From assembly GCA_035235625.1 (NCBI GenBank), contig CP141141.1:40261719-40325718 (forward strand): DNA of 64,000 nucleotides, read 5' to 3'. Positions 2,658 to 64,000 of this stretch are shown here, one piece after another. The translations under genes and the position numbers were made by a program. The notes beneath the pieces are model-generated. The model did not search any database and had not been told where the DNA came from. It saw only the letters and a program-made list of their open reading frames with translations. The stretch is from Saururus chinensis (lineage: Eukaryota > Streptophyta > Magnoliopsida > Piperales > Saururaceae). Position 1 is the first letter of the stretch; every line of letters starts with the position of its first letter.

Positions 2658-2668
2658 TACTTACAATC

Positions 2669-3517
2669 AATGTTTTAAAACCTGGCTTGGCCACTCACCC
2701 CGATTGGTTACCAAGTCAGTTTATCTGAAGTCAATTGGCGGTTAACTCGGGTTGACCCGGTTATTATAAAAACTCCTTAACCCCCCTCCTCCTCCTCTCC
2801 TAAGAGGCACTAGAAATCCTTTTTCCCCTTCCTTGGTCAATCCTTCCCCTCTACCTCTCCGGCCTCCACCATTGCTAGTCTGCCTTGGAGTCATCCCCTC
2901 TCCCCCTCGACCTCGATGGTTAGACCCCAACCACAACGGCGATCCCCGCCTTTTGCTCTCTCTCCTCCCTTATTGTCTACAATTGCCAAGTTGCCACCCT
3001 TACCATCTCCGGCACCTCTTTGCTGCAAGCTCTTCCACTCTTTGCCTCCAAGGTTGCAAGCCTACAATTGTCCTAGCTGACCTCACCCAACTCCATCTCA
3101 CTCACTCTGGCGGAAGTGGCAAAGATGATTTGTGTGTCGAGGAGGGTGCAACAACTAGCAGCGAAGTGGAGAGGCCCTGGACTGAGGAGGATGCGACAAT
3201 GATACAACATAAAGTCAGGATTTTTGGGTCATCACTGGCCCCATGAGGAGAAGGCCTTCTTCAGCTCCGTCACCATGGGCTCGCATGGGCAACTGCAAAG
3301 CAATTAGGAATTAGGTTTTTTCCCCCTCGTTTTGGCCAAACCAGATCGACTCAATCATCCAGGTCATCGGTTCAACCGAGCGGGCCAGAGTGACCCTCCT
3401 AGTAACCCAAACATGCAAGCGTGAACGCTCATTAACTTGAATGACCCAACCCAGATTTTTGACTGGCCCTAGTTGAACCCAGTCGAACCAACTAGGCTGG
3501 TTTGGGTTTTAAAACAT
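2669..3517. mobile_element. TIR element with 10-bp target duplication (Mutator-like, possibly carrying foreign sequence)
   Basis: The ends are inverted copies of ATGTTTTAAAACC (about 13-14 bp). The element is flanked by the direct repeat TACTTACAAT (2658-2667 and 3518-3527). A 9-11-bp target duplication is typical of Mutator-like elements. Inside the termini lie 'GTTGACCCGG'-type blocks in opposite orientations. The centre (about 2780-3250) is a C-rich, exon-like stretch unlike the flanks, with an open frame of 137 codons (2833-3246) rich in Pro, Leu and Ser that I do not recognise. A related end (ATTTTAAAACCAGCCTAG) recurs near 26,476. Confidence 0.7.
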
Positions 3518-3527
3518 TACTTACAAT

Positions 3528-4148
3528 TGTCATAGTAGTGTTGGGAGTTCACAAAATGCCCTAGTGAGGAGGTTCTCAAATTTACCAAAATTGAGGCATT
3601 CAATTGAATAGAATGGAATTTTTTACTTGGTTGAATATTTTTCATCCAAACATGATTTTAGTGGAAACCTACATAATTATGTTTAAATCCACATAATCAA
3701 GTGGCTAATTAGCTATAAAAAACCCTTTTGCCAATAAGAAATTCTACAATCCTTGCAGAACTCTAAGGTCATAAATATGTCAAATTTATTCATAGGCAAT
3801 GATCCTACCTCGAATTGGACCAACCTTGGAGCTTGTTCTCCACTTCCTAAGTCTTATGCTCCTCGAATTCATTGTTATCTCATGAAATTGGTGTAGAAGT
3901 TAGCTTATTTCTCCTGCAGAATACTTGAATCACCTCAAAAGAGCTCTAAGAATTGATCTCTAATCAAAGGAGAAACTTTATTTATAAAATTTTCAAATCC
4001 ACAATTGTCTATCAACTTGGACATGTCAAAGATTGTGTTAGTAGACTTCTTATTTTATTGATTTACAAATAATTTTCCCAGGTTTAAAATTTCTTAGGTG
4101 TCACGACCCATAGGAGATCTCAACTGGTCAGATAGATGCTGGTTAATA
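3528..4148. other. AT-rich spacer
   Basis: No ORF of interest, no RNA gene and no clear repeat seen between the TIR element and the next MITE. Confidence 0.5.
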
Positions 4149-4346
4149 TTCCCTCCATCCTATATTAATAGCTCAATTTAGTAAAAAAAAATGTTCCATA
4201 TTAATATCTCTATTTTGTTAAATTTAAGTGGTTGAGTACTTAAAAAAGAGTATCATAAGTTTATTTTTCCCTTTCTTAGATATGGGTATCACCATTCAAT
4301 AAAATTTGTTTTTCTAAATGTAATTATTAATATAGTATAGAGGGAC
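4149..4346. mobile_element. Stowaway-like MITE, diverged copy
   Basis: Begins with TTCCCTCCATCCTATATTAA and ends near 'TATAGAGGGAC', an imperfect inverted match. It contains the internal block 'TTAAATTTAAGTGGTTGAGTACTTAAAA' family-wide motif shared with the copies at 41,856 and 43,459. Ends are less certain than in those copies. Confidence 0.55.
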
Positions 4347-4523
4347 TAGTAAACTGCCTCTCGCAACAAGTTGGAGGCCACAATGAGAAAAAAAAGGATT
4401 AAATCCAGAATGAGCCGCCAACTGAACAGGTTGTCTCACTGTATCCAGATGCACGCCCAAAGAAGTAGGACATATTGGTCTCAAGACATGGCGGACTTCC
4501 CCCATTCCACTCGCTGAGTAGAT

Positions 4524-5803
4524 AGGGCTAGGGTTGGTCCTCGGCCAAATAGCCTGTGGACAACGCTTGTCCATGTCCGCTAACAGTTTGTTTGTTGGCA
4601 TTTTATATGGGCAAAGCCTCTTTTTTCAGCAGACATAACCATTGTCCATAGACATATCCTCTTAAGCAATTGGATGAGGGTTGAAGCGGTTGGAGAGAAC
4701 GAGAGAGGTGTTGACGACTTTAACTAAGTAGAGCAAGTAGAGTGAGGATCTCTCGATTAAGTAACTTAGCATATGGTAATAGTTTAAACTTATATATGTC
4801 ATCTTCTTTATTTGTAGTATTACTATTGGATAAATTAGTTCATTTTGAAAAGCCAAATAGAGCTATTAATGTGAGACAAAAGAAATATTTAATAATTAGG
4901 TTTAAAGAATAGTTCAAATATAACATTCACATGATTGTATTTAAATTGTTAAAGATTTAAGTACAAGAAAATGATGCTTAAGAATAATTATAGAGAAATA
5001 AAAATTGTCCTTTATATAAGAATGCACATTGTATTTAAAAGTTAACTGAACCTTGGACAAACTGCCGAACAAGGTCTTTGTCCATGGCCGTGCCAGAAAA
5101 TTGGCAGACAACATAATTTGGTGAGACAGGCCACAAACACCTCAGATATGGCCTAGACATCAAACGATGGATGTCCACGACCAACCCTAGATAGGGTACA
5201 CCCACACTTAGGGCTAGTCCTCGGCCAAATAGTTGGCGTACAAGGCTTGTCCATGTCTTTGTCCGCTAACAATTTATTCGTCGGCATTTTGTCCACGAAC
5301 AAAGCTTCTTTTTTGGCGGACACGGCCATTGTCTATGGACATAACCTCTTAGGTAATTGGATAAGGGTTGAAGTGATTGGAGAGAATGAGAGTGATGCTA
5401 ACAACTTTAACTAAGTAGGGCTTAGGTGAGGATCTCTAGATTAAGTAATTTAGCATATAATAATAATTTTTAAACTTATATATATATCATCTTCTTTATT
5501 TGTAGTATTACTATTAGACAAATTATTTCATTTTGAAAAACCAAAAGAGTTATTAATGTGGGAAAAGAAATATTTAATAACTAACTTTAAAGAAGAACTC
5601 AAATATAACATTAACATGATTGTATTTAAATTGTTAAAGATTTAAGTATAAGAAAATGATGTTTAAGAATAATTAGATGTCGGACGAAGTCTTTGTCCAT
5701 GGCCATGTCCAAAAATTGGTTGACAAAAGAATTCGGCCTGACATGGCCATAGACACCTCGGACGTCGGACGATGGACATCTACGACAAGCCCTACCCACA
5801 CTT
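4524..5803. repeat. Two-copy tandem duplication, about 686-bp unit
   Basis: The segment starting AGGGCTAGGGTTGGTCCTCG at 4524 is repeated in direct orientation from 5210 (AGGGCTAGTCCTCGGCCAAA). The two copies stay alignable by eye through 'CTTTGTCCATGGCC', 'GGATCTCT.GATTAAGTAA', 'TCTTCTTTATTTGTAGTATT' and 'CCCACACTT' at their ends, with many substitutions and a shorter second unit (about 594 bp). No coding sequence. Divergence suggests an old duplication. Confidence 0.75.
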
Positions 5804-6025
5804 GAAACCAAACTCTATCTCGAAAGTGGACCTCGATTGGGCACCAACACCAACACTAGAAATGGGACTTAAAGAGGTAGCCTTCAGCAAAACAGGGTGA
5901 AGAGGATGAGACCTGATGGATGGAGAGCGAGTGCGGGGTGGTGGGTGATGGCTGTGGAGGAAAAAGATGGGGAAGCGAGAATGGGGCCAGGAAGGTGCAA
6001 GGGAAAGAAGATGGTGTCACGTGGA

Positions 6026-6238
6026 GGGAAGAGTTTTTAATGCTCCTCACTCGCCATGAGCCTAACATAAGGAATGCTTGAGGGCCGTTCATCCATGAGA
6101 TTGATGACACATATGCTAGTGTATGTTAGTGTCAGTATCACCAACACTAACTTGAACTAGTGTGTACACTGTCAATTTTAAAAATAAATAATTTCTTACG
6201 CTGGGCTCATGGTGAGTATGGAGCATGAAAAACTCCCC
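6026..6238. mobile_element. Palindromic MITE, family A, copy 2
   Basis: Left GGGAAGAGTTTTTAATGCTC with 'CATGAGCCTAACATAAG'. Right 'CTTACGCTGGGCTCATGG..GAGCATGAAAAACTCCCC' is its inverse. The central 'TAGTGTATGTTAGTG' block is as in copy 1. About 213 bp. Confidence 0.78.
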
Positions 6239-6259
6239 ATGTGAGGGACAAGACCACCA

Positions 6260-6483
6260 AAGCATTTTTCATGCTCTTAACCGACAATGAGCCTAGCGCA
6301 AGCTGTGCATTGGAGCTCTTCATCCATTAGATTGACGGGGCACACGCTAGCACACATTTGTGTAAGTAACTCTAACACTAATATACGCTAGCATGTGTGC
6401 CATTGATCTTAAATATCAATGACTCTTATACGCAACTTATACTAGGCTCATTCTTAGTGCGGAGCATAAAAGATGTTTTCCAT
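6260..6483. mobile_element. Palindromic MITE, family A, copy 3
   Basis: Starts near GCATTTTTCATGCTCTTAAC and ends near 'GGAGCATAAAAGATGTTTTCC'. The arms carry AATGAGCCTAGCGCAAG and its inverse TTATACTAGGCTCATT. The core has 'GCTAGCACACATTTGTG' and 'ATATACGCTAGCATGTG'. It sits only about 20 bp after copy 2. Confidence 0.75.
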
Positions 6484-6530
6484 AAAACCTAGTTGAGAAA
6501 AGGAAAATAGTTTAGAGAAATAAACATGAG

Positions 6531-6756
6531 AGAAGAGTTATTCCTCTTCCTCACTAACAATGAGCCCAAAGTAAGCTAAGCATGAGAGCCCATTCATCCA
6601 CAAGATCAGTAGCGTACATGCTAGTGCACGTTACCGTTAATATCTACTGACACTATCATGTACTAGCGTGTGTGCCATCGATCTTAAATATCAATGACTC
6701 TCATGTGTAGCTTACATTGGGCTCTTTGTAAGAGAGAAACATGAAAACTCTTCCCA
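6531..6756. mobile_element. Palindromic MITE, family A, copy 4
   Basis: Arms AGAAGAGTTATTCCTCTTCC / 'ACATGAAAACTCTTCCC', with 'AACAATGAGCCCAAAGTAAG' and its inverse. The core contains 'GCTAGTGCACGTTA' and 'GTACTAGCGTGTG'. The third copy in a head-to-tail cluster. Confidence 0.75.
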
Positions 6757-45995: not shown

Positions 45996-48289
45996 GATCT
46001 TACAAAGTTTATATCATGTAATGAGTTGTAAGTCATGATATTTAATGTTTGATGAAAAAAAATTGTGCATGCTTTCTAATTTAACGTAAACATCTTTTTA
46101 ATTCAAAATCCCAAAGTAATTATTGATTAATCATTAGTTTAACTAATTTCGCTTTGTACGTAGTGAGTGCGAAGAGCCATGAAAGACACATCCTCGTTTC
46201 TAATGAAAACGAAGTGTCTGTTGTTCCGTCTCGTACGAATGTTGACGATGAAAGTGCTTTTTACACTACCTGTGTTGATTGGACTATACCTCCATTGTGT
46301 GATAAATAGATCATAGTCACTGATCGCAGCCAGTTTGTGAAGAGCAATCATTTCGCTCGTCAAATATGGCGCTGTCATACCAGGTTTTATCAGCAAAAAA
46401 CAGAATTTGTGGACCCAAACGACCCATTAATTGTGATATTTGATCATCACCAACATTCTAAATATTGCTATTGGATTTTCACGAATTTGAAAGAACAAGC
46501 TAGTACATAATTTGAACGTAATATATTTGTACAGAGAGAGAGAGAGATTTTTCACAGATACAATACAAGGGAGAGTGAAAGGAAGAGGCAGAAACAAGGG
46601 GGATGGGTCCTATGTTTTGCAGGGTGCTTCCTAACCTACCTACAGCTATCATGCATCAGGTTATATCTCATCGACCCGTCATCCTCAGCCATGGAAAAGT
46701 GGGGTTTTTCGTCTTGGTGTGGCACTGTTTCCAGCTTGATACCAATGCATCCTGTCACACCCCAAATGGCACTCGTCATGTCCTACCCCTTATAGTCTCA
46801 TTAAAAAGACCATCCAGTTTCTTTCAAATTGTTTATACCTTTTGTTCATGTGATCGAAACCCTCCTGCATATATAAGCCCCAAAGTATACTCGATAAAGT
46901 TTGTTCCAATTTTCTTTTTATGATATTTTGCTGTAGATACAAATGCATCTCCTGATTGTCTGTTTCCTCATGAACATTGAGTTCTTAAAGTGGTTACACC
47001 GATCTTTTATTTAAATAATGTTTACAAATGTCGAGCTAGTCATCCAGTTAAAAAAGTTACCCAAAAGAAATATTGTCAGTCGAATATGAGTAATCAGCTA
47101 ATAACAAATTGTTAAACTACGAAAAGATCCAACAGCGTTTTAATGAGAGGTTCAAAAGCTACATGCATGATTGAAATTGCCGACAAACTTTATCCCATCA
47201 TTCTAATCTCTTTTTGTAAAAGTCTCATCACTTTCTTCTTTAATTGTGAGTGGCACACGGGGAGGTTGGCCTATCTTTAATATTCCCTCTTTTTCATATT
47301 AAGTGCCTTATTTCTATTCATTTGTAAAAATATAAATTATAAAAAATGCCGTAAGTACCTTTGGACCACAAAGAACAAAAATCTAACTAACTTGGATTCT
47401 CATAACTCAGTCTAAACTTAAATTCTTATGCTTTTGTTACTATGGTAAAAAGTATATTAGGTATTTTTTACTTAGTAAGAGCATGGGAATTATAGGAAAC
47501 TTAATATGAGATTTTTTTCTTTTTGAGATTTTTTCATATTACATGGTTGAAGAAGTCAATATTTCATATTCCCTGGTTTTTAAACAAAAATGACACATTA
47601 CCTATTGTAGGATGAAACTGCCTTTAGGTTTTAAATAAACCCAATACCTATACATATTTTAATAAATGAACACTAGAACAACAAGATTCGATACAGGGGG
47701 GGGGGGGGGGGGGGGGGAATTGATCGGCGACAGTTAAAAGTTGCCGGCAGGAGGTGATCAGCACTCACCAGTGAGTTGCTGGAGATAGCAAAAACCCGAT
47801 TTTTTACATGCCAGAAACTGTTAAGGGTGAAAAAGGCTTTATTTTGGTAGATCCGATCACTCTTTAACCATAATAATGGATAGGATTGATATTTGCATAC
47901 ATTACAACATAGATGCATGCAATGATACCGTGTATATAGGTAGAAAGGCGCAGTTAATGAACATTGATTCGTCGGTGAGGTTTGGCGAGTTGCTGCTTCA
48001 AGTCAAAGAACAACTGTTGTCAATAGTAATGTGACTTTTAAGTATTTAATTTCATCTTTGCAATCACGATCAACACCCATGTGCAATCGGTGTATTTCAT
48101 TTATAAGAAGGCAAATAAAGAGGTATTATAATTATATGTCGAGATGAAAGAGCCCAACAATGGTGACAAATCACCATCAGTAGAAAGGAACAAGACATTC
48201 AATAGAGCTAAATCACCAGTGGTATCAGCTCACCCCAGCTCTAACTTCATATTGCAAGCCAGAGTCAATGATACATAATTCACTTTTGA
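45996..48289. other. Spacer between the HD-Zip promoter and the MULE
   Basis: AT-rich. A (GA)n tract near 46,535 and 22 consecutive G at 47,696-47,717. The ORF at 46,603-46,923 has no recognisable domain. The left end of the MULE may lie in here; no terminal repeat could be fixed. Confidence 0.4.
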
Positions 48290-48294
48290 AATTG

Positions 48295-48605
48295 TCAGGT
48301 AACAATGAATTTTAGATTATACGATAGTGTACTATATCATGTATTCAAACACAATATATCTAACTTATCACGTTTAGTACAAAGAATATCGTGTTAAGAA
48401 AAAATACAATATTTATAATATCACATAACTAATGATGAAAAATACAAAAGAGATATAACTAATTCTTTTTAAAGAAGATGTAATAACACGACCTGTTTAA
48501 GTATCATGTTAGAAATAACACAATATGATTTGTAAGCGTGTTACCGAATACGTGATGTCGAGTTATATCGCACAGTGATTAACACGTTAACATCCATTGC
48601 AAATT
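48295..48605. repeat. Palindromic-motif cluster 1 (5' of MULE transposase)
   Basis: Degenerate copies of CGTGTTATCGATAACACGAC, for example GCGTGTTACCGAATACGTGA at about 48,536-48,555 and ATCATGTTAGAAATAACACA near 48,503. Confidence 0.6.
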
Positions 48606-49384
48606 GGGAGAACCGGGAAATTTGAACTCAAAAAATCAATGTCATTCTTCTTACAACAATCCAATGCTTACATAGCATATGATAGAAGTCAATCAGACTG
48701 GATTATAAGAAATATATGTCGCCAACCATGAGTGCGATAAGGACTTCATTTGATAACTATGAACCCCCATATAACCCTGGTAATTGCGATGGCTATGAAT
48801 TTGAAGAAGTGTGGGGTGATGATCAATAGAATGAGAATGATATAATTGACATAGAAAATATGTATGACCACAAAGAATCCAGACACAACAAGGTACCAAG
48901 TATTTTTGATGTAAATGCCGAGGTAGAGTGGGAGACAGTCGATGATCTCAACATGTTGGAACCGAATATTAGTTAGGGCGAGCTAATGACTGGAAATTTG
49001 CAAGCAAAGGACTACCATATTCTACTCCAAATGGGGGCACGTTTCCTAAGCCTGCTACATTTCAAGAGGGTTTTGATCCACGTTGCAATAAAGAAAATTT
49101 TACATATCGTGTTGTGGATGAGAACATGAATACATATGTTGTAAAGTGCTCTAATCAGACTTGTAAGTGGTACATAAGAGCTTCAAACATAGGAGATCAT
49201 ATGACTGTGACGAGGTTAGTGCTCGACCATTCGTGTGGAATTCAAAGGAAGTCAACTAACCATCTTCTAGCATCACACCTTTGGATAGCGAGAAAATGTT
49301 ATTATAACGAACTTGAATTTTTGGTAAAGTTCTATATCAACTTTTAGTAATTTTGGATTATTTTTTAGAGATTTGTCTAGAGTT

Positions 49385-50981
49385 TGTAATAGAGCATTGA
49401 AAAACAAACGTAACGGTCCTTGAACCGCTTTAATCGGACACCGGGGCCGAAAGTAATCACCTCGAGAAATGTACCACATGGACGGGATCCACTTGAAAAG
49501 TGTGGGAAACCCCCCCTATGTGGGGTCTAGTTTTGTAGTGCTCGTTGATACAAGTCCATCGGTATGAAGAACTCGTGTAACGGAGTCCAGGAGAGAAAGT
49601 TACACACGTTTAAATATTTTAGAAATTTTGAAAATAAATAAATTAATAAAATAATATTTATTGTGTCAGCTGGCATCAGCATGGTGACGCTAGCAAACAC
49701 GCGTTGGCGCAATGTGCGGACAACTTGCGAATGGTGACTCGTGCGTGATGTGTGGCATTGTTGCGTGCAGGCGTTCCATCGGCACAGCGAAACCGCGTGA
49801 TGCAGTTTTGCCATGCGCAATGCGTGTATGACACGCGTCGCACGTTCTTCTTCCCCAATTCCACTAGTTCGGCTATAAATTCCAAACCCCGATCTCTTCC
49901 CTCAGTTATTTTTCCGCCTCTACCACTTCGTAAACTTCATTTCTTCCATTCTAAGCTGTTTTAACTCCAAATTAAGCCATTCAAAAGTTGTTTCTAGCTA
50001 ATTCGAGTGTGCCAGACACAATGATGGGGTCAGGTTTTCCATTGGAGGCTATTTTCAATTACAAAATTATATTCCAAGTTCAAGGTAGAGAGTCTTTAAG
50101 CTCTAAACTGATGCATTGTACGTAGAATTAATTTTTCTAAACTATTCTTGTTCTGTTATGCTTATTTGATTTATTTTCTAAAAAATGTTATATTTGTGAA
50201 ATGTTTTGCATACGTTGCTTTATGATATGTGCATGTACTTTCTAGGTAATTCTGGGATAAAATCTAGAATTTCATATTCTACCTGGATACCTATCAAGAA
50301 AAATAATCGGCATAGCGTGCACATGGGTGTGGAGCATCATGGGAAAGTTCCTCACTTTCTGAGCCTCTTGATACCCCATGAGTGCTGGGGGGAACGACAT
50401 TCGGTATTACTGCTTTTGGATTTATCGTCATCGGACAAATCTACGTTTTTCTATTCTATTTTTGAATATTTTTCTGAGATAAATGTGTTTTGGAAAAGAT
50501 AAAGTTTTAAATTATTTCATGAATTTTCTGCTTCGCATTACTTTAGATATTAACACGACTTACTGAGTATAAAAATACTCACCCACCCCTAGATTATGTA
50601 GGAATTACAACTAGAACGGAGGTAGAAGAGGAAGAGTTATCCAAACGATTTATTTGGTTGCTGCTTTAGATATAATCTTTGTAATTTTTGTGTGACTAGT
50701 ATATAAAGGCATGATATGCGTCAATTATGTATAACTATCCGCTCTACGTATAGTGATCTTAGGCATGGAATTAAAATTTACCATGCTTAGTGAATTTGAT
50801 ATTTATAATATATTGGCTATGCAGTTCCTCCGATGTTTTTTTTATATACATATGATGTCATGTTAAATTTTTGTGTGTTATATGCACCGGTGGTTGTCAC
50901 GTTTGGTCATATGGGTATACTTTACATGTGTCAGATGAAATAATGTTATTTATTCTATCATTTTAAAATGGCGGCTATCAC
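49385..50981 (-). mobile_element. TGTCACG-family LTR fossil, reversed, in intron 1 of the MULE transposase
   Basis: On the minus strand it starts near TGTGATAGCCGCCATTTTAA, comparable to the start of the 34,458 element. The + strand segment 49,440-49,570 (GGGATCCACTTGAAAAGTG, GGGGTCTAG, AAGTCCATCGGTAT) is the reverse complement of the right part of the copy at 60.1-60.2 kb. About 1.6 kb, non-coding, ends approximate, no clean target duplication seen. Confidence 0.55.
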
Positions 50982-51119
50982 ATTTATGGGTTATTTAAAG
51001 ATTCAATAAACACTATACCGAAAAGCATAACAAGTTATATTTCAAAGCACTGGGGTATAACTGTGAACTACAAGAAATGCTGGCGTGCAAGTAAAGCAAA
51101 CTTATGATATTCCTTGAAT

Positions 51120-51345
51120 TGTGTTTTCAAAAACATGACATTTTAATATGATGTGTTATCGGACACACGAGTCTCTTATAATCACATTTTCTTACAACAC
51201 GACCTAATTACCTATTGTGTTAACATGAACACAATGATTACACAGTTCAGGTTTACAAAAACACGACTACAAATTTTGTCATTTTATCGGGAATACTACG
51301 TATTAACTTGTTGTATAATCTATATTAGAATGTTAACAACTTAAT
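51120..51345. repeat. Palindromic-motif cluster 2 (intron 1 of MULE transposase)
   Basis: GATGTGTTATCGGACACACG at about 51,149 and TTGTGTTAACATGAACACAA at about 51,216, plus scattered ACACGAC halves. Directly precedes the exon 2 acceptor. Confidence 0.65.
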
Positions 51346-52359
51346 TAATATCTGATCGTGCAGATAAAGCACTAAGTGATTTAATAGATGGGGACCCAGA
51401 TGAATCCTATCGCATATTTCATTCATACAAAATTCAGATAGAAAAGATTAATCCAGGAAGTGCAGTAGTTCCAATTAGATCATGTGATATTCCTTGACCT
51501 ATATGGGGATACAATTTTGAAAGAGTCTTTTGGATGTTTGGGTTTAGGGTCAGTTTCAAGAGCCTTCAGAACAACATTGAGGCCATTGCTGACGGTAGAT
51601 GTGACTTTCTTGAAGGGAAAGTATCCTAGTTAGCTAATAATAGCAATTGCACTAAATGAGAACAATAATATGCTATGCATCACATTTGCAGTGGTTGAGA
51701 ATGAGTATGAGAAAACATGAAGCTATTTTCTTAAATTGCTTAGAAATAAATTATTTTCAGATCCTCTAGCAGAGTTGGATACAATTGTTTTTGATAGAAT
51801 ATAGAATGATGAAGAGCTTGGTAAATACTGTTAAACAATAATTTCCCCCTACACACCACAAATATTGCATTCGTCACATGGCAACAAATATGTTGGAAAT
51901 TCAAAGACAACTACCTAAAAAACCAGCTCCATGTGACAATTGAAAATTTCAGATAAAATGTGTATGATAAAATAATGAACAACATTAAAGAACATAATCC
52001 TAAAGCATTTGCTTGGCTAAATAAGATAGGTGTAGAGCATTGGGCCCATGTTGCATTTCCAGGCAAAAGATATGAAACACTAAGCTCAAATAGGTCTAAA
52101 AGTGCTAATGCAATGTTAAAAAAAGCTAGGTCTACTCGGTTAATTGAGCATATAAGGGAGCACACAACCGCACTCTTTGAGAAATGTCAGACAGGTGGAC
52201 AAACTATGACTGAAGAGTTAACCCCATTTGCTCGTAAACACATCGAAAGTAGAAAATAAGAACCAAGGAATGTGCATGTATTGCCAGTATTAATTTATGA
52301 ATTATAGGTTAACTCGCTGTATCACCAAGTAAAATGCAATTAATATTGTGTGTATGTTC

Positions 52360-52502
52360 ATGTGTTATCGTCAATCTCGTGTAAGTTTATCTGTTAAAAG
52401 AATACGATAGTTGTGAGGGTAAGGGTAGTGTTGATGGGTCGTGTTTTCGATAACACTATAATAACACTTATCATGTTCTCATTCACACGATATTCATTCA
52501 AC
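52360..52502. repeat. Palindromic-motif cluster 3 (intron 2 of MULE transposase)
   Basis: TCGTGTTTTCGATAACACT at 52,439-52,457 and CATGTGTTATCGTCAATCTC near 52,350-52,380. The cluster fills the short intron before the SWIM exon. Confidence 0.65.
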
Positions 52503-53034
52503 AGGATGTAGTGAATCTAGTTGAATGTCGCTGCACATGTAGAAAGTTTCAGCATCTGGGACTATCGTGTAAACATGCAATTGTAACAATAGATCACAAA
52601 CACTTCTATGTGTCTGACTAATGCGAAAAATTGTACTCCACAAAAATATATAAAATGACATATCGACAGCTATTATACCCAGTTATAGATAGGCACAAGT
52701 GGGCACCAACTGGAGTTTTACTTACATTTAACTCACCTATCCCACTCAAGCAGTGGGAGCGTCCACAGAAAAACTAAATAGAGTCACAACCAAAGGACAA
52801 AACCCCACACAAATGTAGAGCATGCGGGCAGTTGGGTCACAACTGCAAACACTACACCAGAGCACAAGAGGACCCTCCGAATGTGGCTGCTGGTCCAAGT
52901 ACAAGCCAAAAGAGGGCGAATAAAAGAGTAGAAAAATGATGTAAGAAAGGGGAACATCGATCGTAGTTGCCTTTTCCACCCTCTTTCTTTAGTTGATTGG
53001 AGGAAATGTCATTGTATAGTTATGTTCTTAGAAA

Positions 53035-53330
53035 CATGATTTTTGGAAAATGTCATGTTACACTATACGATTTTTCATATGCATCATGTTATCGCTAACA
53101 CGACCTTGTTAAAGATCGTGATTTCAATAACACAATATTTTTATTTTTTGTTTGCTAATATTTTATATTGTACACATATCATGTAATAAAAAACACGATC
53201 AAAGGACTTACGTGTTACCAATTACACGATAAGAAAAGACTTACAATGAATATCATAATTTTTTTGCACTACATGTCACCAATTACACGATATATTTACG
53301 TTGTGTTATTGATAACATGACAATAGCAAT
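53035..53330. repeat. Palindromic-motif cluster 4 (3' of MULE transposase)
   Basis: ATCATGTTATCGCTAACACG (53,083), ACGTGTTACCAATTACACGA (53,210), ACATGTCACCAATTACACGA (53,270) and TTGTGTTATTGATAACATGA (53,301). Confidence 0.75.
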
Positions 53331-53654
53331 AAATAAACAATCAATTTCCAAAAAGTCACTCCAATTTTTTGGCATCACGATTTACTGAAGAGTCAATCCA
53401 ATTTTTGGCGTAGCAAACATAAATCCGAATCACCAATTTGCGAGGAGTCATCACCAATTTCCGGTGCATCCGGTTTTGAATTGGCAATTATAAATCCGCA
53501 TCTCCTGTTAGATCAAGTAACTATTCGGCGCCCACTCCCAGGAGACTGTCGGGAGAATGCTCGCCCAAGGAACTTCATCACTGGGACGGATTGAACACCA
53601 TATGCCTCCATGAGCACAGTATGGTGTGCCATCTGGGCAAAATATGTGAGTCAT

Positions 53655-53839
53655 CGGGACATTGAAATAATGTCCAATTATGACTCATCACCCTTTGAGG
53701 TGGATGAGTAGACCGGTGCAGATGATTAACGGCGTGTAGTATCAAATGAATTTGCCAATTTGCCCCATTAATCGTTCGCACTAGTCTTATCATCAGCCTC
53801 GGAGGAGGATGAGTCATAATCTGACATTATTTTAATGTC
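53655..53839. repeat. Inverted repeat with 35-bp arms in the convergent spacer
   Basis: Arm 53,655-53,689 (CGGGACATTGAAATAATGTC...) and arm 53,805-53,839 (...GACATTATTTTAATGTCCCG) are reverse complements with about three differences, separated by 115 bp. It lies between the 3' ends of the transposase and protease genes. Confidence 0.75.
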
Positions 53840-54129
53840 CCGAATGTCTAATCACATTTTACCTTATGGCTCACCAGGCTGTGGTCTTAGAGGCAGATGG
53901 TGTGTGATCTTCTATTTTCATATTTGCAATCGGTGATAGGATAGTGTCTTGTGGTCTACTGATGTATTTTTTTTGTTTTTTTATGTTATGAAATGAATGT
54001 ATCCTTGTGAGAGATTGAGATCATTTTATTTATGTAATGGACTCATAAAGTAATATTAATGAAAAAAAGTGTTTTGCCTAAAAATTTGTCGTTCTGCTTT
54101 CCTATTTTGCAACACATGAAACTATTTCA

Positions 54130-54640
54130 AACCATAGCAAGTAACACTTTATCGGTGACACGACCTCATCAGGATGATCATCTTTATAGTAACACGATCT
54201 ATAACATATTATACACGACTTGTTTTTAATTCATGTTATCAGTGACACGATCAATTCATGGTCGTGTTTTTGGTGACACGATCAGCGCACTAATATTTCA
54301 CGACCTAACTATACTTTATGTGATCGGTTACATGACCAATTGGATGATCATCTTTTTGCTAACACGATCTGCAAAATATAATACACGACCTAACAAACAG
54401 TCGTATGATCGATTACACGACATACGTCTTGGCACGTTGTTGCTTACACGATCTATAACCTATCTTAGACAACTTAACATGTCTTCATGTTATTAGTGAA
54501 ACGACTTACGTACATGCATCTTGCTGATTACACGATATGTATCTTATATTAGACGACCTAACATGTGTTTGTGTTACCAGTGACACAATGGACGTAAAGT
54601 CATGTTGTTGATTACCATAGATTACACGATATTGAATGAA
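54130..54640. repeat. Palindromic-motif cluster 5 (convergent spacer, densest array)
   Basis: At least ten degenerate copies in 510 bp, including ACTTTATCGGTGACACGAC (54,145), TCATGTTATCAGTGACACGA (54,231), GTCGTGTTTTTGGTGACACG (54,261), GTCGTATGATCGATTACACG (54,400) and GTGTTACCAGTGACACAA (54,571). 'ACACGAC' and 'ACACGATC' halves recur every 25-40 bp. Confidence 0.8.
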
Positions 54641-55334
54641 ATTAAAACAGTTGGGTGAACTTTATAAATTGTGTACTGTAAAAGAGGCAAAAAAAACTAC
54701 TACAATTCTTCCAATTATGCATCGAATTCCTAATCAATTCCCCCATGAAGAATTGCAGCACATATCTAAGGCCTAACTAAACTTGTGACCTCCGCATGGG
54801 TAAAATCTAGTTGAATGACTCCTCCAGCCAGCTTCGCTACATAATACATCAGGAACACCCCACAGTCTTCGTTCGTCTCTTGATATGGGCATTTATTGAT
54901 CTTCGTCATTGGCCACTTTGTTGCACCCTCTATGTGAAGGACCCTCTCCATTTATGTGACAACACATTTTCTAATATGGTTGACCTTTGCAAAGTGGTGA
55001 TTGTGGTTACCCTTTAGCGGGTTATACCACCTAAACCATTTCTCCCTGCAGAGCAGAAGAAAATGGCCAGTGATGTAGATCGGAATGAAACCACTCTTAG
55101 GCGTCGTTTGGATGACGCTTTGTATTATCTGAAAAGCTGCTTTTAGTTAAAATCGCTTTTTAAAAAACAAATCAAAAGCACGTCATGTTTGGATGTATAT
55201 TATAAAAAATCAGTTTTTCAAACAAAGTTTCAGAAATCTTGTTTGGATGGCCATTATATTCCATACATCTGAGTTATGAGAAATACCCACTTTACCCCTC
55301 AATAAACATAATTTATAAGCTTATTAAAATGTAA

Positions 55335-55466
55335 TATAAAATAATAATTAATAATTAAATTAATAATTAATAATTAATAAAGTAAACTCCATCTCTACTT
55401 ATAAAATAAAATAATAATTAATAATTAAATTAATAAAGTAAACTCCATCTCTACTTATAAAATAAC
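55335..55466. repeat. Tandem duplication, about 66-bp unit
   Basis: 'ATAATAATTAATAATTAAAT' followed by 'AAGTAAACTCCATCTCTACT' occurs twice in direct order. Confidence 0.75.
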
Positions 55467-57859
55467 ATATGTAATCCTAAATTAAGATAATTACTGGGTA
55501 GGTGGGCCCCCATTGTCCTACTTCAAAAGATGGGTTAAACCCACAAGACATTCCCTGATTATAAGCCATTTCTAGAAAATCCAAATACATCTTATTAAAT
55601 AAGAGAAATGCACTAAGTATATCACAATTTATTGATCATACAAATATGAAAGGAACAAACTGGACAAGTGCATACTCTAAAAAAATTGACTACAATTAAG
55701 TTGACTCTTTATGTACACAATTTATGTCATATGCACAAGCAACAACTCCTTGTTACCAAACACATGTCAGGCATGATCTGCGATCTGCCCAGAGTCTCAG
55801 TCGCCAGTTTGCCAGTCCAATAATAAGATATAAAAAATAGATAATCATAAAATTATTAGGAATCCAATGATCACTTTTCCTTTAGTTCTCCTAGAAATGT
55901 GAATTATTGAATCAAATGTCACACTGACATAAAATCATGCACAGAGATCCATTTTTGAAGTCATTGCAATGATAGAAACAACAAGAGAAGCAAAACATGA
56001 TATATAACACACATTTTCAAGGATTAACAGACAATTCTAAATCACAATGTGAAAGCATAACTGTTTCTGTCCACTCTTACCCTCCAAAAGATATTTAAAG
56101 CATTAATTAAAAAAACTATCTGGATAACAAAATGAGGCTCCTTACATGAATCATAAATTCGTTTATATAAACTAAACATAAAAAAGTTTTGGCATATTCA
56201 TCATGATCCAACCTTAGAATTGAAATTTGAAAACTGCAGCAAAGTTATTGTACAATAATTATTGGGATATTTCATGTCCTACAATGCTAGTTAGTTTCCC
56301 TTTGTACCCTTCCAACATAAATGAACAGTTCAAGGAAAATTTGGAAGGTTCTATTCGGACTAAGAGTATCCTAATGCTGAAAATCTGAAATTGATTGTAT
56401 GGAAATGTGGTAAAATAACATTTCCACATATTAGGTTGCACAGCTGACATGTATATTCTTAAGAATTAGAGAAAAAGGAAAGGCCTCTACAATAAGCCAG
56501 ATAAGGACAAAAAAAACACAATTAAAATGTGACAATGGAGAAACGGCAGTCAGCCAAGTATTGCGTCCCTAACGTTTTCCAAAAATTGAAGGAAAAAAAG
56601 GCTCTTCAGATAATGAAATTTCAGTAATTAAAGCAATAGACTTTCCAGTTTTACCCAAGCCATTGATATAATCTTATTCAAAGTCAAACATAGACTTTCC
56701 AGTTTTACCCAAGCCATTGATATAATCTTATTCAAAGTCGAACATAGATCTACATAAATGTGTGAGCTGATCATGTACATACACATCATACAACAGTTCT
56801 CTCTATTGTTGATACTAATCCAACCACTTTCAACAAAGAGGTCAGCTAAGAAGGTTTAGGAGATTATATGACCTAATCAAATTAAGAAGGGGTTTACCAA
56901 AAAAGTAAAAGGTTAAGAAGTGACCATAACTGAAATTGCCAGGTGAAATGGAAAAAATGGGACCAGTATGGAGTCCTATTAACTAATTACGTGTTTTAGC
57001 TTAGAAAAACTAACAGAGCATGTAAAGTGAATCAGCAACAACCTAAGGCAGAAGTCTGAGACCGCAGGACATTATATATTGTCTTCCAGTGCTTACACTA
57101 AGCCAATGAACAAGCGAACAAATTTCCTCCCTGTGCTAGAAATGCTATTTTGACATCATCTGCTGAGACTCAGCCGGTTTTGTGAGGGAATGGGGAGGAG
57201 GGGAAAGAAGATGAAATGAGACTGGTTCAATTCAAAATCAATGGCATGTGGAAGTGTTTCAAAGGAGATAATGCCCAGAAAATTTTGGATGAACGAGTCT
57301 AGAAGGGGAAGCAGCTGAATAATTTTGAATGGGAAGAAAAAACATGGCTTGGACTGAACTTGTCTTTCTATCCAACGGCTCCCTCCCACCACCCCCCTTT
57401 CCCTAATCATTTTAAAATTTAATTGAAACATTCAATTAGTGAGGCAAATTGACCTTAGCCTCCGACCCAACTTTGCTATATCTACACCAGCCCACACTTA
57501 CCTTCTCTTCCGCCACCCAATTCTGTTCTACACTGCATGATCCTCCATCAGAGCAGCAAAAAGATACAAGATTTGCAAAGTTGAACGGACAATATAAGTC
57601 ATACTTTCTTCTTACGGTAAACCAACAATAAAAAGCACATAAAAGCTGAACAACATCAGGTCATGGAATAAAAATCACTAATCAAAAGAAAAACAAGATA
57701 ACGACAGTGGAGACATGATATCAATTCCAGGGATGTTAGCTCGGAAGACAGAATCGGAGTAAATAAAATAAGCGGAAAAATTAAAACCGACGGACCAGGA
57801 GCTGTAAACTCTGTGTGCAAGAGTTGAAACATTCTTCTACGCACTACGAGCTTTAGTGC
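55467..57859. other. Unassigned interior of the PIF-like element
   Basis: AT-rich, no domain-bearing ORF. It looks like intron or UTR of a captured gene rather than transposase sequence. Which gene is not known. Confidence 0.4.
56637..56744. repeat. 54-bp tandem duplication, nearly perfect
   Basis: 'TAGACTTTCCAGTTTTACCC' + 'AAGCCATTGATATAATCTTA' + 'TTCAAAGTC' occurs twice in a row with a single difference, so it is recent. Confidence 0.9.
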
Positions 57860-58439
57860 TTCGTTGCGCGTAGGTCAGAACAAACCTAATTTTATAACTA
57901 ATTTGGATCGGGCCAACATATTTTATCGTTGGTTGCCTACGTACATGTTAGATACCATCTCTGATGTTATTCCAATACGATCGGATTCGAACGTAGTTCT
58001 GCCTATTGGCTATTATATGCATCATGCATTAGAAAATTATATACGTTAAAATACGTATATTTATATATCCGAATAAATTATTCGGAATCAGACAAAGATC
58101 TCTTAAAACATCGGAGTCGAACGAAAGCTCATAAATCATCGAAAATACATCTCACACTCTATTGTAGAAGTGAGCAAAATATCATTAAAATCACATGTGT
58201 CTCTCTATCACATAGCAGTAACGAAACCCATAAGAGAGTAGATTGGATCATATCATATCATATCAAGGCATATCAAAACGCATCAAATCAGAGTATAGTA
58301 TATATCTTAAATAACACATATATTCATATAATCATATATCTTAATTAATATAATATTACTAATTTAGATACATATGCATATAAATCTAATAAAATTGAAA
58401 AGTCAGAAATGCTTACTCCCCTGTACTTCCGAAAGTTGC

Positions 58440-59760
58440 GATATTCCATATTACTCGTTTTCTTGGAGCATCCTCCCTATTAGGTCCAAAGATAGCGGCA
58501 CAATCTCCTCTAGCTCTGGAGAGTTCTTTTGCCCTTCTTTGTATCGGTGAACATAGAGTAAATATTTTTCATTACTTCCGATTTGCCAGAACTTCAAATA
58601 CCTTCCCGGCACATCCGCAACCAAATTTCCTTTTACACCTTATGTAGAAATCCTTTCTGACATTGACATAGACAAGAAAATTGGGCTTAAGGCCTCTGTT
58701 AATCATTTGCACGAGAACCTTATGCGCTTACTTCAACCTTCCTGATTTATAGAAAAACCTTGCAAGCAACTGTAATTCATGCACCTAGAGTATCTATCCG
58801 ACTCGCTCATATCAATGGCATATGCTTGTGCATCTACAAGCCTCCCATACCAAATATATCCCTTAATAAAAGCTGAATGGGTCGTCAGTCGAAGCTGAAT
58901 TCCCTCCTATAGCATATGATACAATAAATCTATATCATATTCAATCTTCCCTAGCCTACAAGCATGAACCATACCTTCCATTGTTTCTAGCCATTCGCAG
59001 CCTTCAGCTATACGTTCTCTCTTACAAAGACTATCCAATAAGTAGTTATAGGATTTCACATTTGGATCACAACCATAGTTCCTCATTTCATCAAACAATT
59101 TCAGGGCTGCTTTGAAGCTGCCCATCTTGCATTTAACGGCAATAAGAATGTTGTAATAAGAGGTCCTCCTTGACGCCTCTTCTATCACAAAAATGACAAA
59201 ATCAAAGTGGTTCAGATCACTGAGCACCTTGATTAAGCTATAATTTCTAGAACTACGACATGACCCTCTTGCTCCATTAAGCGTTTCTAGGAGTCTCTTG
59301 ACAGACTCTTCAAGCTGGACAGAGTTAGAACCAAATTATTAACCACGAAGGTATAAACTTCTGGCTTGGGATGAAAATGGTTTGCATTTTCCTGATCAAG
59401 TGATAAATGCAAAGCTGAAATCCGGCGCTCGCCCATAGACTACTACGCTTGCCACAAAATCAGGGAAAAATCCAAATCCAGCTGCCCCAAATGGACTTCA
59501 ATATCAGATGCATGCCTCTCAAACACATCTCGAACTTTTTCCACCTCTGTTGGGTTTCTGCAGCCACGGTTTGGCTCCCAGTCGTGAGGTAAAGCTTGGA
59601 ACTTTTTGCAATGGATTAGCGAGCTTGAAGGGGGCGGGTAGAGCTTACAATCCAGATCCGGAGGGACAGAGGAACAATAGTTGAAGGCGCCGAGATCAGA
59701 TAAATACCGGAAATTGAGGGCAGAAACAAGTTTCTCCGCCAAGCAAAGAAATTGAGAAGG
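58440..59760 (-). pseudogene. Pentatricopeptide-repeat (PPR) protein gene fragment
   Basis: On the minus strand 59,742-59,443 is an N-terminal-like piece (MAEKLVSALNFRYL ... EVEKVRDVFERHASDIEV). 59,227-58,907 reads PPR repeats: YYNILIAVKCKMGSFKAALK, LFDEMRNYGCDPN, KSYNYLLDSLCKRERIAEG, WLETMEG. More PPR-like sequence continues in other frames to about 58,440. Stops and frame changes separate the pieces, so it is not functional. PPR proteins usually act on organellar RNA. It lies between LTR-type sequences inside the PIF-like element, so it was probably captured or trapped there. Confidence 0.7.
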
Positions 59761-59820
59761 ACTGATTTTGAGGAGTACCCCCCCCCCCCCCCCCCGAAAG
59801 AACTAAGATTAGGGTTTGAA

Positions 59821-60118
59821 TAGGGAATCAGAAGTGATGCGTGTTTGACGCGTGTATGATACGAGACACGCGTCAGTCTTCTGACGTGCATGTCACACGT
59901 GTCAAATTTTTGACGCATTCCCACGCGCTGCCATGTGGCAATACACGATATCGTTTTATCCCCAAGTTGAATAGGGAACCAGAAGTGATGCGTGTTTGAC
60001 GCGTGTATGATACGAGACATGCGTCAGTCTTCCGACGTGCATGTCACACATGTCAAATTTTTGACGAGTTCCCACGCACTGCCACATGGCAATACACGAT
60101 ATCGTTTTATCCCGAAGT
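59821..60118. repeat. Tandem duplication, 151-bp unit
   Basis: 'TAGGGAATCAGAAGTGATGC / TAGGGAACCAGAAGTGATGC', 'GTTTGACGCGTGTATGATAC', 'GACGTGCATGTCACAC' and 'ATACACGATATCGTTTTATC' occur twice with few differences. GC-rich with many ACGCGT/CACGTG-like sites. A C18 tract lies just upstream (59,778-59,795). Confidence 0.85.
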
Positions 60119-61109
60119 CGGAATTGCAAATTCTCGGTACCGATGGACTCGTATCGATAAGCCCTTTGAAACTAGACCCTACATGGGTAGGTTCTCTCCC
60201 ACTTTCAAAGTGGGTCCCGCCCATATCACACGTTTCCCGATGTCGTAACTTTTGTTCCTGACATCAGATTCGCGTGTTCTTCGATTTGTTACGCTCGTTA
60301 CTTCGAGCTCTAATTAAATACGGGACTTTTATCCATTAAAGCCCCTTAAATTCTAACTAAAATTACATAATTACCCCTAACCCTCTTGGGTTAAGTGTAA
60401 TCAGAACATGAGGTGCTACAGGAAATGAAACAGGAACTAGCAAGGCAGCGAATAGGATCCACGAATGAAGAAAAAGATCGGCGAGCAAAGGGGATATAAG
60501 TGACAGTGGAAGGAGAAAGGGGAATGGGGAAGAAATACGACTAGAGAGGATATATAGATGGCGGGAGGAGGAAGGGGACGATGGCGGGAGGAAGACGGGG
60601 AAGATCATTACAGAAAAGGAAATGGCGCGGGACTCACGGGATTGAGTTATGCCACGATACGGGAGAAAGGCATAAATGTCTGGAAAAAAAAAAACCTTTT
60701 GTTGACACGATTTTTGCCTAACCCTCCTCTAGAGGAGAGTTAGACAAAAAGCGGGTAGAAATCAAAATTAAGCCAAAAGCGTGGTTAAAGGTGTTTTTTA
60801 AACAAAGTAAAACTTTTAATTTAAATTGTCCAACCAAACAAGATTTACTTGCAAAACTGCTAAAAGCGGGCAGAAAGCTGGTAGAAAGTGCCATCCAAAT
60901 GACACCTTAGTGTTAACATTCAACCTCCTCACCAAGTTGCCCATGATTTTGGGATGCTCCTCATCCTTGTCATGTTGCGTCCCAATGTTGTAGTAGTTCT
61001 GGATCAAAAATATGAAACAAACAGTTGGGATAAATGCCAGGATATCTAATATAGATATTGTGCTCTTCCAGAAGTTGGCTGAACACGTCTATGACCTAAA
61101 ATCATCAAC

Positions 61110-61410
61110 AAAATATTAGTGTTAGTGGTAACACGACATATGATATGTCGTGTCAATATAAACATGACATCGACATGTTAATTTATCGTGTAATCGATAA
61201 CATGACATATACTATATCGTGTAAGCACAAATACGCTAATTACACGATAATTTTGTTTTAAAATTATCATGTTATTGATACAATGATATGTGGATGTGTC
61301 GTGTTATCAATAATGCGAAAGACAAATGTGGCTAGAGCCTTATTTCATATATCGCGTTATTCGTAACAACCTATGTAATGAATCATGTGGTTAATAACAC
61401 GGAAGCAAAC
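61110..61410. repeat. Palindromic-motif cluster 6 (intron of the Ulp1 gene)
   Basis: TCGTGTAATCGATAACATGA (61,186), ATCATGTTATTGATACAATG (61,266), GTCGTGTTATCAATAATGCG (61,298), ATCGCGTTATTCGTAACAAC (61,351), CATGTGGTTAATAACACGG (61,384). Confidence 0.8.
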
Positions 61411-62309
61411 TATTCACTAATTATTACCTCCTCGTTATGCATTCCTGTCTAAATAGAGACACATAATAAGTGTGGAGAAGCATCACGATAGGTCATTCCT
61501 TGTGTGGGTTCACCAAAAAGTTATTGATGGTCTCCTGATCTTCACCCCATAAAATCTCCATGTGGAACAAGGTCTGTAGATCAAGGTAGTTGTGTGGCAC
61601 CATAGCGACCTCCTCCTTGTCCTTTTATTTCTCAGTGCGCTCTTCGATGTCTATCACATGCCAGATACTTTGTCGTAGTTCTTGATCAACTAGATTAGGA
61701 GTATCTGATATAGTGGCACTACTGGAAGCAACATTTGAGTACATGGTTTCCGGGTAGGAGACTTTGTAGAAAATGCTTCTGGGGCAGGGATAATATATGG
61801 GCTAGGAATGGATGCCAACAGAACTTCATCCCCTGGCTTTTCCTTTTGATCCTTTGCCGGCCGAGTCGTTTTTCCAATCTTTTCAGCAATGTAGCTGCTA
61901 TATCCCTTTGACTTCTCTGCGCCCACATTGGCCACCTTCTTAGTTGGTTCTTCCCCCTTTGATGCATGTGCCAGTGGATTAGCTACCGTGTACCTCGTCC
62001 TCCTAGGCACGGGGGGTAGTGGGGATGTGAAGGGGCCAATATATGAAGCTTTCTGTTTCTTTATCCTCAACTTTATTTGCTTCGGTGACACCTCTTCATC
62101 CTCTCAACCTTGCACTAATTTCTCCTCCTGGGATTGTACTTTTTCCTCTTCCCGAGATTGAATCACTTCCTCATTAATTTTCCCAAGGAATCTGGTGATT
62201 ACGATCCTTTCAACCTTCAGACCCTTCTTCTTCTTTGGGGAGCCAACTTTTAGCTTCATTTTCTCTGCATAGTACTTGTAACAAGTTGTATGAGTATATA
62301 CACGATAGT

Positions 62310-62515
62310 CAAACAATGCGTGTTATTGATGACATGACTTTTCTAACTATCGTATTGAAACTAATACGTTAATATAAACAGTCGTGTTAACGATCACATG
62401 ACTACTACCATATCATTTTCATATAAAATAATATTGTATGTTTGCGTGTTATCGATGACATGATGATCTAGCAACTAACATGATAATAGAAAAGGTTGTG
62501 TTATCCAATATATAC
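62310..62515. repeat. Palindromic-motif cluster 7 (intron of the Ulp1 gene)
   Basis: GCGTGTTATTGATGACATGA (62,319), GTCGTGTTAACGATCACATG (62,381), GCGTGTTATCGATGACATGA (62,444), plus CATGATAATAG..TTGTGTTATCC halves. Confidence 0.8.
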
Positions 62516-63314
62516 TTACACAAAATAAAATCCTCATCGATAGACTAAGGGACATATTTTCTTTACTCTTCATGAGCAGATTGATGAACAACTTCACTTG
62601 ATTTAGAAGCTCTAACTTTGACCCTAACTGACTTCTCTCCTTTTGTTGTTGGCAGAGGGTTGTTGCATGTCAGATCTCTGGTTGATGGGGTACATGCGGC
62701 TGCTCGGTACCGGTTTAGGAGTGGGATGCATCTATTTGATTAAGTTCTTTACCAGCTTCAGAGCATTTTTAACCCTTTGGAGATCAATTTGCACACTGTC
62801 AGTGCTCCAACCCCATTCCCCGTACAAAATGGCCTTTTCCAATATGACGTCAATTATACCAGTCATGACATATACTGGCATGATAAAGCTCTCAATGACG
62901 TCTTTGCCGGAATGAGATTGCCATGTCGTCTGGCCACAATGTGCTTGAACAGGAACCGTTTTCCTTTGTATCATGGTATGTGTGGTTGTCTTCTTTGCCC
63001 TCGGGGTTGGCCTTCGGCCATAGATCAAGTGGGCCTCCTCGGTAATTGGAGTTATTTGCATAAATTGTTCAGAATCTACCTTAAGCCGCATGAGTGTCTC
63101 CTCGTACCACTTCCTCATCCTGTAATGAGTCAACTTCTTCCTCGACTTTTCATTGGCCGGGTCAAGTTTAACAGCCTTCTCCATGTCCGTTATCAGTTGC
63201 ATAAACGCAGGCCACCTCTTGCACCTTGAGCTATATGGAGGAGAACTTGGAGCCCATATAGAAATATGCTAAAAAAACTACACCTACGTGGGCAAAACAA
63301 TCCTGTTTATAGTG

Positions 63315-63425
63315 ATCCATTGTCATGTATGTCGTGTCATGGATAACACGTTTATTAAACTAATCGTGTCATTGATTACATGAAATACTTACATCGTGTA
63401 ATTGAATATACATGATATAGTACGA
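63315..63425. repeat. Palindromic-motif cluster 8 (intron of the Ulp1 gene)
   Basis: GTCGTGTCATGGATAACACG (63,331), ATCGTGTCATTGATTACATG (63,363), ATCGTGTAATTGAATATACA (63,393). Confidence 0.75.
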
Positions 63426-64000
63426 AATATACCTATAGCACAAATGAAGCCCCAATGAGAATTTCGGAGGTGGTGGAGTGCTCATCTTCTCTACTTCTGA
63501 TGTTTTGGTGGCTGATGATATTCCTCGAAGCAACCTGTCAAGCACGGCTTCAGCCCAGTTGTACCTTCCCATAATTATCAAGTCATCTATGAAGTCACAC
63601 AGAGATGAGGAGACAAATCTATTGCTCTGTGTGAATAAAATGAGGATCCCCATGTATACGATGACCAATCATGTTAAGTCCTCGTTGGAGACAACCTGCC
63701 TGTTGTCTGCCACTTCCTTCAAAATTTCTTTAATAAGGTTCTTCTCCGGCCGCTTCCCTGCGAATTTTTTTTTGAAGAATTGCCCCTTGCCTTGCACAAC
63801 ATTCCCGTTACCACTATCCAACTTCAACGGGTTCCCTTTTGCACTCAAACCCGTGATCAGTGCAACTTCTTCCAGCGTAAGGGGTAGTATTTTGCCCTGA
63901 ATGTTGAACACCTTTTGTGAGTTATCCCAGCACTCACCTATTAGAACTTCTAAAAGCGGTCTGGAGATAATGATTGGCTCGCAATCGTATATTGTGTACA

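Follow-up and report, generated by a model that had tools for sequence, protein, structure and literature searches.

Why should one Mutator-like element (MULE) carry copies of a single short palindrome throughout its non-coding parts? The element in question lies in a 64,000-nucleotide stretch of the Saururus chinensis genome (contig CP141141.1, positions 40,261,719 to 40,325,718; hereafter the window), where a preliminary description had counted more than 20 diverged copies of such a site, often followed by AC, in eight clusters in and around the transposase gene and a convergent Ulp1 protease gene. Our analysis confirms that observation and supports its interpretation in part. We put the probability at about three in four that the palindromes form the cis component of a VANC-type system for sequence-specific anti-silencing, in which the element's second gene, here encoding a DUF1985-Ulp1 protein, would supply the DNA-binding partner.

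A scan of the window at ≤3 mismatches gives 11 palindrome matches, compared with 0.03 expected by shuffling, and 0 of 100 shuffles reach 11. A limit of ≤5 mismatches raises this to 27, spread over 48505 to 63382 and all within a single MULE (27 of 27 lie inside 48-63.5 kb, with 0 in the rest of the window), and at ≤6 mismatches 42 of 46 fall inside the same interval. The eight named clusters are all present, and beyond the window end there is a ninth (Table 1). The claim that exons, insertions and the rest of the window are free of copies also stands: none of the 27 falls in a transposase or protease exon (frames read by eye), in the 5.8-kb insertion at 55100-60906, or in the interval 49290-51100, to which a long terminal repeat (LTR) insertion had been assigned whose borders we did not find. 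In the genome (516 Mb, 11 contigs), 5,235 matches occur at ≤2 mismatches versus 4 for the reversed pattern used as control, so that the genome scan, like the shuffle, is favourable to the earlier claim. The sample used to judge family confinement comprises the window and 18 of the 32 clusters of exact matches listed on contig C1; within it, the motif is nearly confined to this element family.

The 18 array loci on contig C1 are all related to each other or to the window element, and most are related elements with the array in a central position and ends starting GAGTTTTTTCCATATTACCTGGC. An end of this type (≤5 mismatches) is present on both sides in 10 loci, on one side in 5 and on neither in 3. 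Nine of the two-ended elements measure 1.9-2.3 kb and one measures 4.1 kb. No piece of the window transposase or protease was detected inside these 10, and we therefore call them gene-less; they and the window element are bounded by the same ends. Genome-wide, the end sequence has 608 and 607 matches on the two strands at ≤2 mismatches (control 0). In one gene-less copy (L009), tandem units of 31-32 bp lie within larger repeats. The same locus contains, at 112-3208, repeated units around AGCGACGTATA and TACGTCGCT next to long AG-rich tracts that are unrelated to the palindrome, and AGCGACG and its complement occur in it 32 times.

Site structure was examined with 325 sites from 17 gene-less-array loci and 174 sites from 16 autonomous-type sequences; the gene-less set includes two loci that are not simple, L020 and L021, the latter of which also carries a stretch of an autonomous copy. 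Conservation was expressed as leave-two-out identity, in which the motif columns are drawn solely from rows outside the compared pair. Identity is high at T3 (0.93), G4 (0.76), T5 (0.82), A14 (0.88), C15 (0.80) and A16 (0.90) and at the flanking T0 (0.85) and A19 (0.83), falls to 0.47-0.58 at the outer CpG steps and 0.54-0.64 at the central one, and is 0.56-0.66 three to nine bases outside the site. This profile yields the consensus T-YR-TGTNAT-YR-ATNACA-YR-A, a 20-bp sequence with two-fold symmetry. Conservation of the core exceeds that of the flank at 12 of the 12 site columns with at least 5 rows, by 0.19 on average, in agreement with the earlier suggestion of a two-fold site under selection or copying. 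Both halves deviate at similar rates per paired position, and cases in which both partners have changed are near or below the number expected from independence, a count that the mismatch limit lowers somewhat. Other details of the preliminary description need adjusting. Its varying centre holds for the central CG step, and the outer CG steps vary too, in the way that methylated CpG would, but conservation is kept at the AT steps next to the centre; of the AC said to follow the palindrome, the A is conserved (position 19).

The kind of change and the distance between sites add to this picture. C-to-T or G-to-A changes make up 616 of 775 deviations in gene-less arrays and 338 of 660 in the autonomous type, a pattern that fits the decay of methylated cytosines. 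A feature beyond the earlier observations is the spacing: among neighbour distances of ≤110 bp, 31 or 32 bp accounts for 204 of 298 in gene-less and 39 of 118 in autonomous loci, with just 2 distances of 30 or 33 bp in each set, and a further 27 of the 118 autonomous distances are 60-65 bp. The spacer sequences between sites differ between autonomous and gene-less elements, and the palindrome and its 31-32 bp step are unchanged.

The placement of the arrays relative to exons was followed in the window locus and 14 others, which are the best 15 of 150 scored loci (1,889 candidates) around the DUF1985-Ulp1 exon. Arrays are found in all 15 (14/14 relatives), with 6 to 17 matches each at ≤5 mismatches. 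They lie upstream of the DUF1985-Ulp1 exon in 15/15 loci, in the next intron in 15/15 and further on in 11/15 (within the 3.3 kb examined), and the upstream array precedes the presumed start of the coding sequence. Of the 136 matches, 0 fall in the 14,654 bases of mapped exon and all fall in the other 35,200 bases; this count uses a query trimmed of a tail that reads into an intron, and the untrimmed query gives 6/136.

Another DUF1985 clade in this genome has a different motif upstream of its gene. The palindrome is absent at ≤5 mismatches from the ten best Pfam DUF1985 loci, which together with the element at L007 carry units of AAACTATAAAACTGGA (motif 2) in one orientation (11/11 loci, 95 matches). 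In its 20-base form, motif 2 has 700 and 785 genome matches versus 18 and 11 for the control. Clusters of it, 42 in number, were built from 100 listed exact places, and 150 of 957 DUF1985 candidates were scored; of the 42, 19 are no more than 3 kb from a scored DUF1985 hit, in every case upstream of it and on its strand, where 0.07 would be expected. A count of 7-base words in nine of the eleven second-clade loci returns motif 2 plus purine-rich words, which we take to be coding-derived. A third DUF1985 clade probably has its own upstream motif as well. Motif 3, TTAGCATTATTGCTAA, was chosen by eye in one third-clade locus (L051) and then tested on genome places, with 154 and 140 matches versus 8 and 9 for the control; among the matches listed, 12 of 59 clusters are near one of 146 third-clade hits, all 12 upstream, with 0.10 expected. 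The third-clade protein matches the window exon (E 8.5e-4), so the clades are probably related. Motif 2 is found 0 times in the 15 palindrome-family loci and once among the 18 array loci; the 11 motif-2 loci contain 0 copies of the palindrome at ≤3 mismatches; and motif 3 at ≤2 mismatches occurs 0 times in all three locus sets and once in the window.

Some further observations concern these clades. The L007 element (3500-6700, ~13 kb past the window end, not far from the window element) belongs to the second DUF1985 clade; it has motif 2 both upstream and within a presumed intron, and its middle part is acidic and repeat-rich. Four open third-clade DUF1985 exon copies are 99-100% identical (C2:398559, C8:21687901, C4:43137053 and C6:17379135), which suggests recent spread. 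Several motif 3 matches are paired 22 bp apart (for example C2:12118556 and 12118578), about two helical turns.

As in VANC systems, we find an element-encoded DUF1985 protein, recognized through relatives whose E values lie below the curated cut-off; a dense, short motif in non-coding DNA that is largely confined to the family; and different motifs in related elements, for which motif 2 and, more weakly, motif 3 are the evidence. The anatomy matches the VANC kind closely, and we infer the binder, its dimeric binding and its effect on methylation. The DUF1985-Ulp1 protein would bind the palindrome, probably as a homodimer or as paired units on the symmetric 20-bp site. With many sites, often three helical turns (31-32 bp) apart, it could coat the promoter, introns and intergenic spacer, and likewise the gene-less copies of its own family that have the same ends. 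The bound protein would remove or prevent DNA methylation there, and the transposase and the DUF1985-Ulp1 protein would thereby stay expressed. A possible role of the Ulp1 part is to cleave SUMO off silencing proteins.

Several points weigh against this reading. DUF1985 is detected in the window exon at E 0.031 and in three relatives at 2.8e-6, 5.2e-6 and 9e-4, all below the Pfam curated cut-off; some DUF1985 loci above the cut-off share 63-66% identity with the window exon. A structure prediction of the DUF1985 part had a mean predicted local distance difference test score of 36 and was not used. Three distant relatives (61, 66 and 63% identity) hold 0, 0 and 3 palindrome matches at ≤5 mismatches and 2, 2 and 3 at ≤6 (351-361 bases sampled each), with the outer CGTGT and ACACG best preserved by eye; such few and diverged matches indicate that the site drifts within the family. 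At either outer edge of the 44-base stretch compared, flank identity climbs back to 0.69-0.77. Pooled distances match a 10.5-bp period (p 1.5e-4 in the window and 1e-4 in the relatives, versus uniform distances), but helical phasing at that period is unsupported once the 31-32 and 60-66 bp classes are taken out, both in the window (n = 7, p 0.49) and in the relatives (n = 28, p 0.17, best period 10.8). With 18 of the 32 listed C1 clusters examined, the share of the 5,235 genome matches that lie outside the family is only sampled. No scored DUF1985 hit lies within 3 kb of 23 of the 42 motif 2 clusters (150/957 candidates scored), and no third-clade hit lies near 47 of the 59 motif 3 clusters among the matches listed. 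The third-clade hits that do lie near motif 3 are distant members (ranks 67-136), the 66 closest members are without it among the matches listed, and the locus from which motif 3 was taken holds 2 matches at ≤2 mismatches. Two genes were seen among the window frames listed, compared with the three of VANDAL21 (VANA, VANB and VANC), and a third was not recognized, although no search was aimed at VANB and a decayed gene could escape. Finally, the window element has terminal inverted repeats (TIRs) at both ends, whereas VANDALs are described as non-TIR in a review (PMC13317346), and we therefore do not file it as a VANDAL.

The palindromes might instead be distributed transposase-binding sites, used in transposition or autoregulation. 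This is unlikely in our view, even though arrays are retained in gene-less elements, whose TIRs are the same and which are therefore presumably served by the same transposase, because the sites are interior, in introns and spacers, and outside the TIRs. In two other clades the motifs lie upstream of DUF1985 genes, which also speaks against the transposase but weighs little, since they were found by looking there and the transposase is unmapped in those clades. Symmetric, conserved and evenly spaced sites resemble a protein-binding site whichever protein is involved, and arrays that are upstream of the gene as well as intronic could, through a host transcription factor, act on the element as enhancer or boundary. 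We consider such a factor less probable again: the window has 0 matches outside the element at ≤5 mismatches, the array loci examined on contig C1 (18 of the 32 clusters listed) are kin, and other DUF1985 clades carry other motifs.

The tandem units within larger repeats in L009 are what one might expect if slippage and conversion had spread a neutral satellite through the introns; an intronic satellite spread by conversion is among the options of the preliminary description. We hold a neutral satellite to be very improbable, because neutrality leaves the conserved symmetric core unexplained: 12 of the 12 site columns compared exceed the flanks while the CpG steps decay, and spacers differ between autonomous and gene-less copies while the palindrome and its step stay. 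The self-complementarity of the sites, and their abundance in introns, could point to RNA hairpins or an intronic splicing device, which we regard as hardly credible given that half-site changes are independent (with the reservation about the mismatch limit made above), that arrays occur in elements where no gene piece was found, and that they also lie 5' of the presumed coding start. Among the explanations listed earlier, a silencing-related device is favored, and transposase binding and splicing are not, because the arrays are interior and occur in elements without detected gene pieces, and because the half-sites do not co-vary.

If the VANC-type reading is true, MULEs with TIRs also use motif arrays for anti-silencing, and many gene-less copies travel along with them. 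A single genome that holds several families, each with its own code, would provide material on the DNA-reading part of the protein, on code divergence and on the role of Ulp1, and a symmetric, evenly spaced site renders the dimer and helical-face model directly testable. A more extended version strikes us as doubtful: at least three DUF1985 anti-silencing systems, each with its own DNA code, would coexist in this genome, and in the window family a DUF1985-Ulp1 homodimer on palindromes three helical turns apart would bring a SUMO protease to chromatin, where deSUMOylation of silencing factors would remove the marks.

Table 1. Coordinates (window numbering) of the palindrome clusters and of the parts of the element that carries them
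Feature	Position	Strand	Basis or remark
Palindrome cluster, 5' of transposase	48505..48554	.	≤5-mismatch scan
Palindrome cluster, presumed intron 1	51120..51169	.	≤5-mismatch scan
Palindrome cluster, presumed intron 2	52440..52489	.	≤5-mismatch scan
Palindrome cluster, transposase 3' flank; spacings 32, 63, 31, 61, 30 bp	53085..53319	.	≤5-mismatch scan
Palindrome cluster, convergent spacer	54145..54419	.	≤5-mismatch scan
Palindrome cluster, protease-gene intron	61118..61401	.	≤5-mismatch scan
Palindrome cluster, protease-gene intron	62319..62462	.	≤5-mismatch scan
Palindrome cluster, protease-gene intron	63333..63382	.	≤5-mismatch scan
Ninth palindrome cluster, array 5' of DUF1985-type exon	64297-64455 (past window end, L006)	.	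scan
Target-site duplication, left copy, 9 bp, TTTCTTTTT	47516..47524	.	sequence at both ends
Target-site duplication, right copy, TTTCTTTTT	65078-65086 (past window end)	.	sequence at both ends
Left TIR, common to gene-less elements	47525..47587	+	end comparison
Right TIR	about 65016-65077 (past window end, L006)		end comparison
Open frame with MuDR-type DNA-binding domain PF03108, E 5.8e-8, residues 21-75	48973..49347	+	frame continues into presumed LTR insertion
Transposase middle part, interrupted by stops	51345..52259	+	frames
Transposase C-terminal part with SWIM zinc finger PF04434, E 1.1e-7	52506..52939	+	exon start estimated
Convergent gene, C-terminal part, end of Ulp1/Peptidase_C48 domain	54766..55096	-	PF02902, 22.9 bits
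Later insertion (5.8 kb) splitting protease gene	55100..60906	.	inverted ends GGYGTCRTTTGGATG, TTA on both sides, no palindromes
Protease gene, middle exon, present in relatives too	62732..63268	-	frames, relatives
N-terminal DUF1985-type exon	63435..64000, runs beyond window end	-	left border estimated

The element spans 47525 to 65077, with its right end 1.1 kb beyond the window end. Its assignment to the MULEs is based on the target duplication of about 9 bp that flanks both ends and on the MuDR-type transposase domains PF03108 and SWIM in the window frames; the transposase segment 51957-52259 has 150 scored genome matches among 1,485 candidates. The second gene, DUF1985-Ulp1, is convergent to the transposase. 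As in Ulp1-carrying MULEs of the KIU type, it contains an Ulp1 protease domain, recognized from a partial PF02902 segment (22.9 bits, cut-off 20.7) that covers 54766-54951 and profile positions 151-200 of 217 only. The window copy is broken by stops, by the presumed LTR insertion (as placed in the preliminary description) and by the 5.8-kb insertion. We take the latter to be PIF/Harbinger-like; it holds a frame coding for pentatricopeptide repeats at 58907-59335, perhaps a captured gene, and a 151-bp unit that occurs twice (93% matches) at 59816-60118.

The closest parallels are the VANC systems of Arabidopsis. A study of eudicot VANC diversification (Sasaki et al., EMBO J, 2022) reportedly found that DUF1985, DUF287 and Ulp1 were gained and lost and that target motifs changed; specificity is said there to depend on sequence, density and helical periodicity, and non-autonomous copies are said to be anti-silenced. 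The preliminary description was wrong to regard arrays of this kind as unknown in MULE introns: in Arabidopsis VANDALs, the element-encoded VANC binds short motifs that are specific to the family and sit in introns, in intergenic DNA and in terminal non-coding sequence (PMC5735166). VANC21 binds YAGTATTAY, a motif dense in non-coding VANDAL21 sequence, and methylation is lost when VANC21 is expressed; the motif of VANC6 is a different one, and VANC proteins have DUF1985 (PMC5735166, PMC10398659). Some VANDALs carry VANC genes with an Ulp1 domain that act on their own motifs, as summarized in the review cited above (PMC13317346), and meeting reports refer to target coevolution and to a structure of VANC21 that is unpublished (PMC8756742, PMC12859917). 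In the open-licence literature we found no paper on the palindrome motif, in searches made without the motif letters.

The VANDAL21/Hiun and VANDAL6 systems resemble the window family in being Mutator-like elements with an element-encoded DUF1985 protein, in having a dense non-coding motif that is largely family-confined, and in having related elements with other motifs (PMC5735166). The VANDAL target is a 9-base sequence arrayed in one orientation, whereas here it is a 20-bp two-fold palindrome, often in 31-32 bp steps; the window element also differs in its TIRs of ~60 bp and in a DUF1985 joined to an Ulp1 end, and we infer binding and demethylation here. MULEs that carry Ulp1 (KIU/Kaonashi; melon, rice, grapevine) are alike in possessing a second gene with an Ulp1 domain (PMC13317346); Arabidopsis KIU is described as non-TIR (PMC13317346), unlike the window element, and the available passages on Ulp1-MULEs do not mention a palindromic array. 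The kind of system is thus already known from Arabidopsis VANDAL/VANC, and the palindromic site and the TIRs are the particular features of the one described here.

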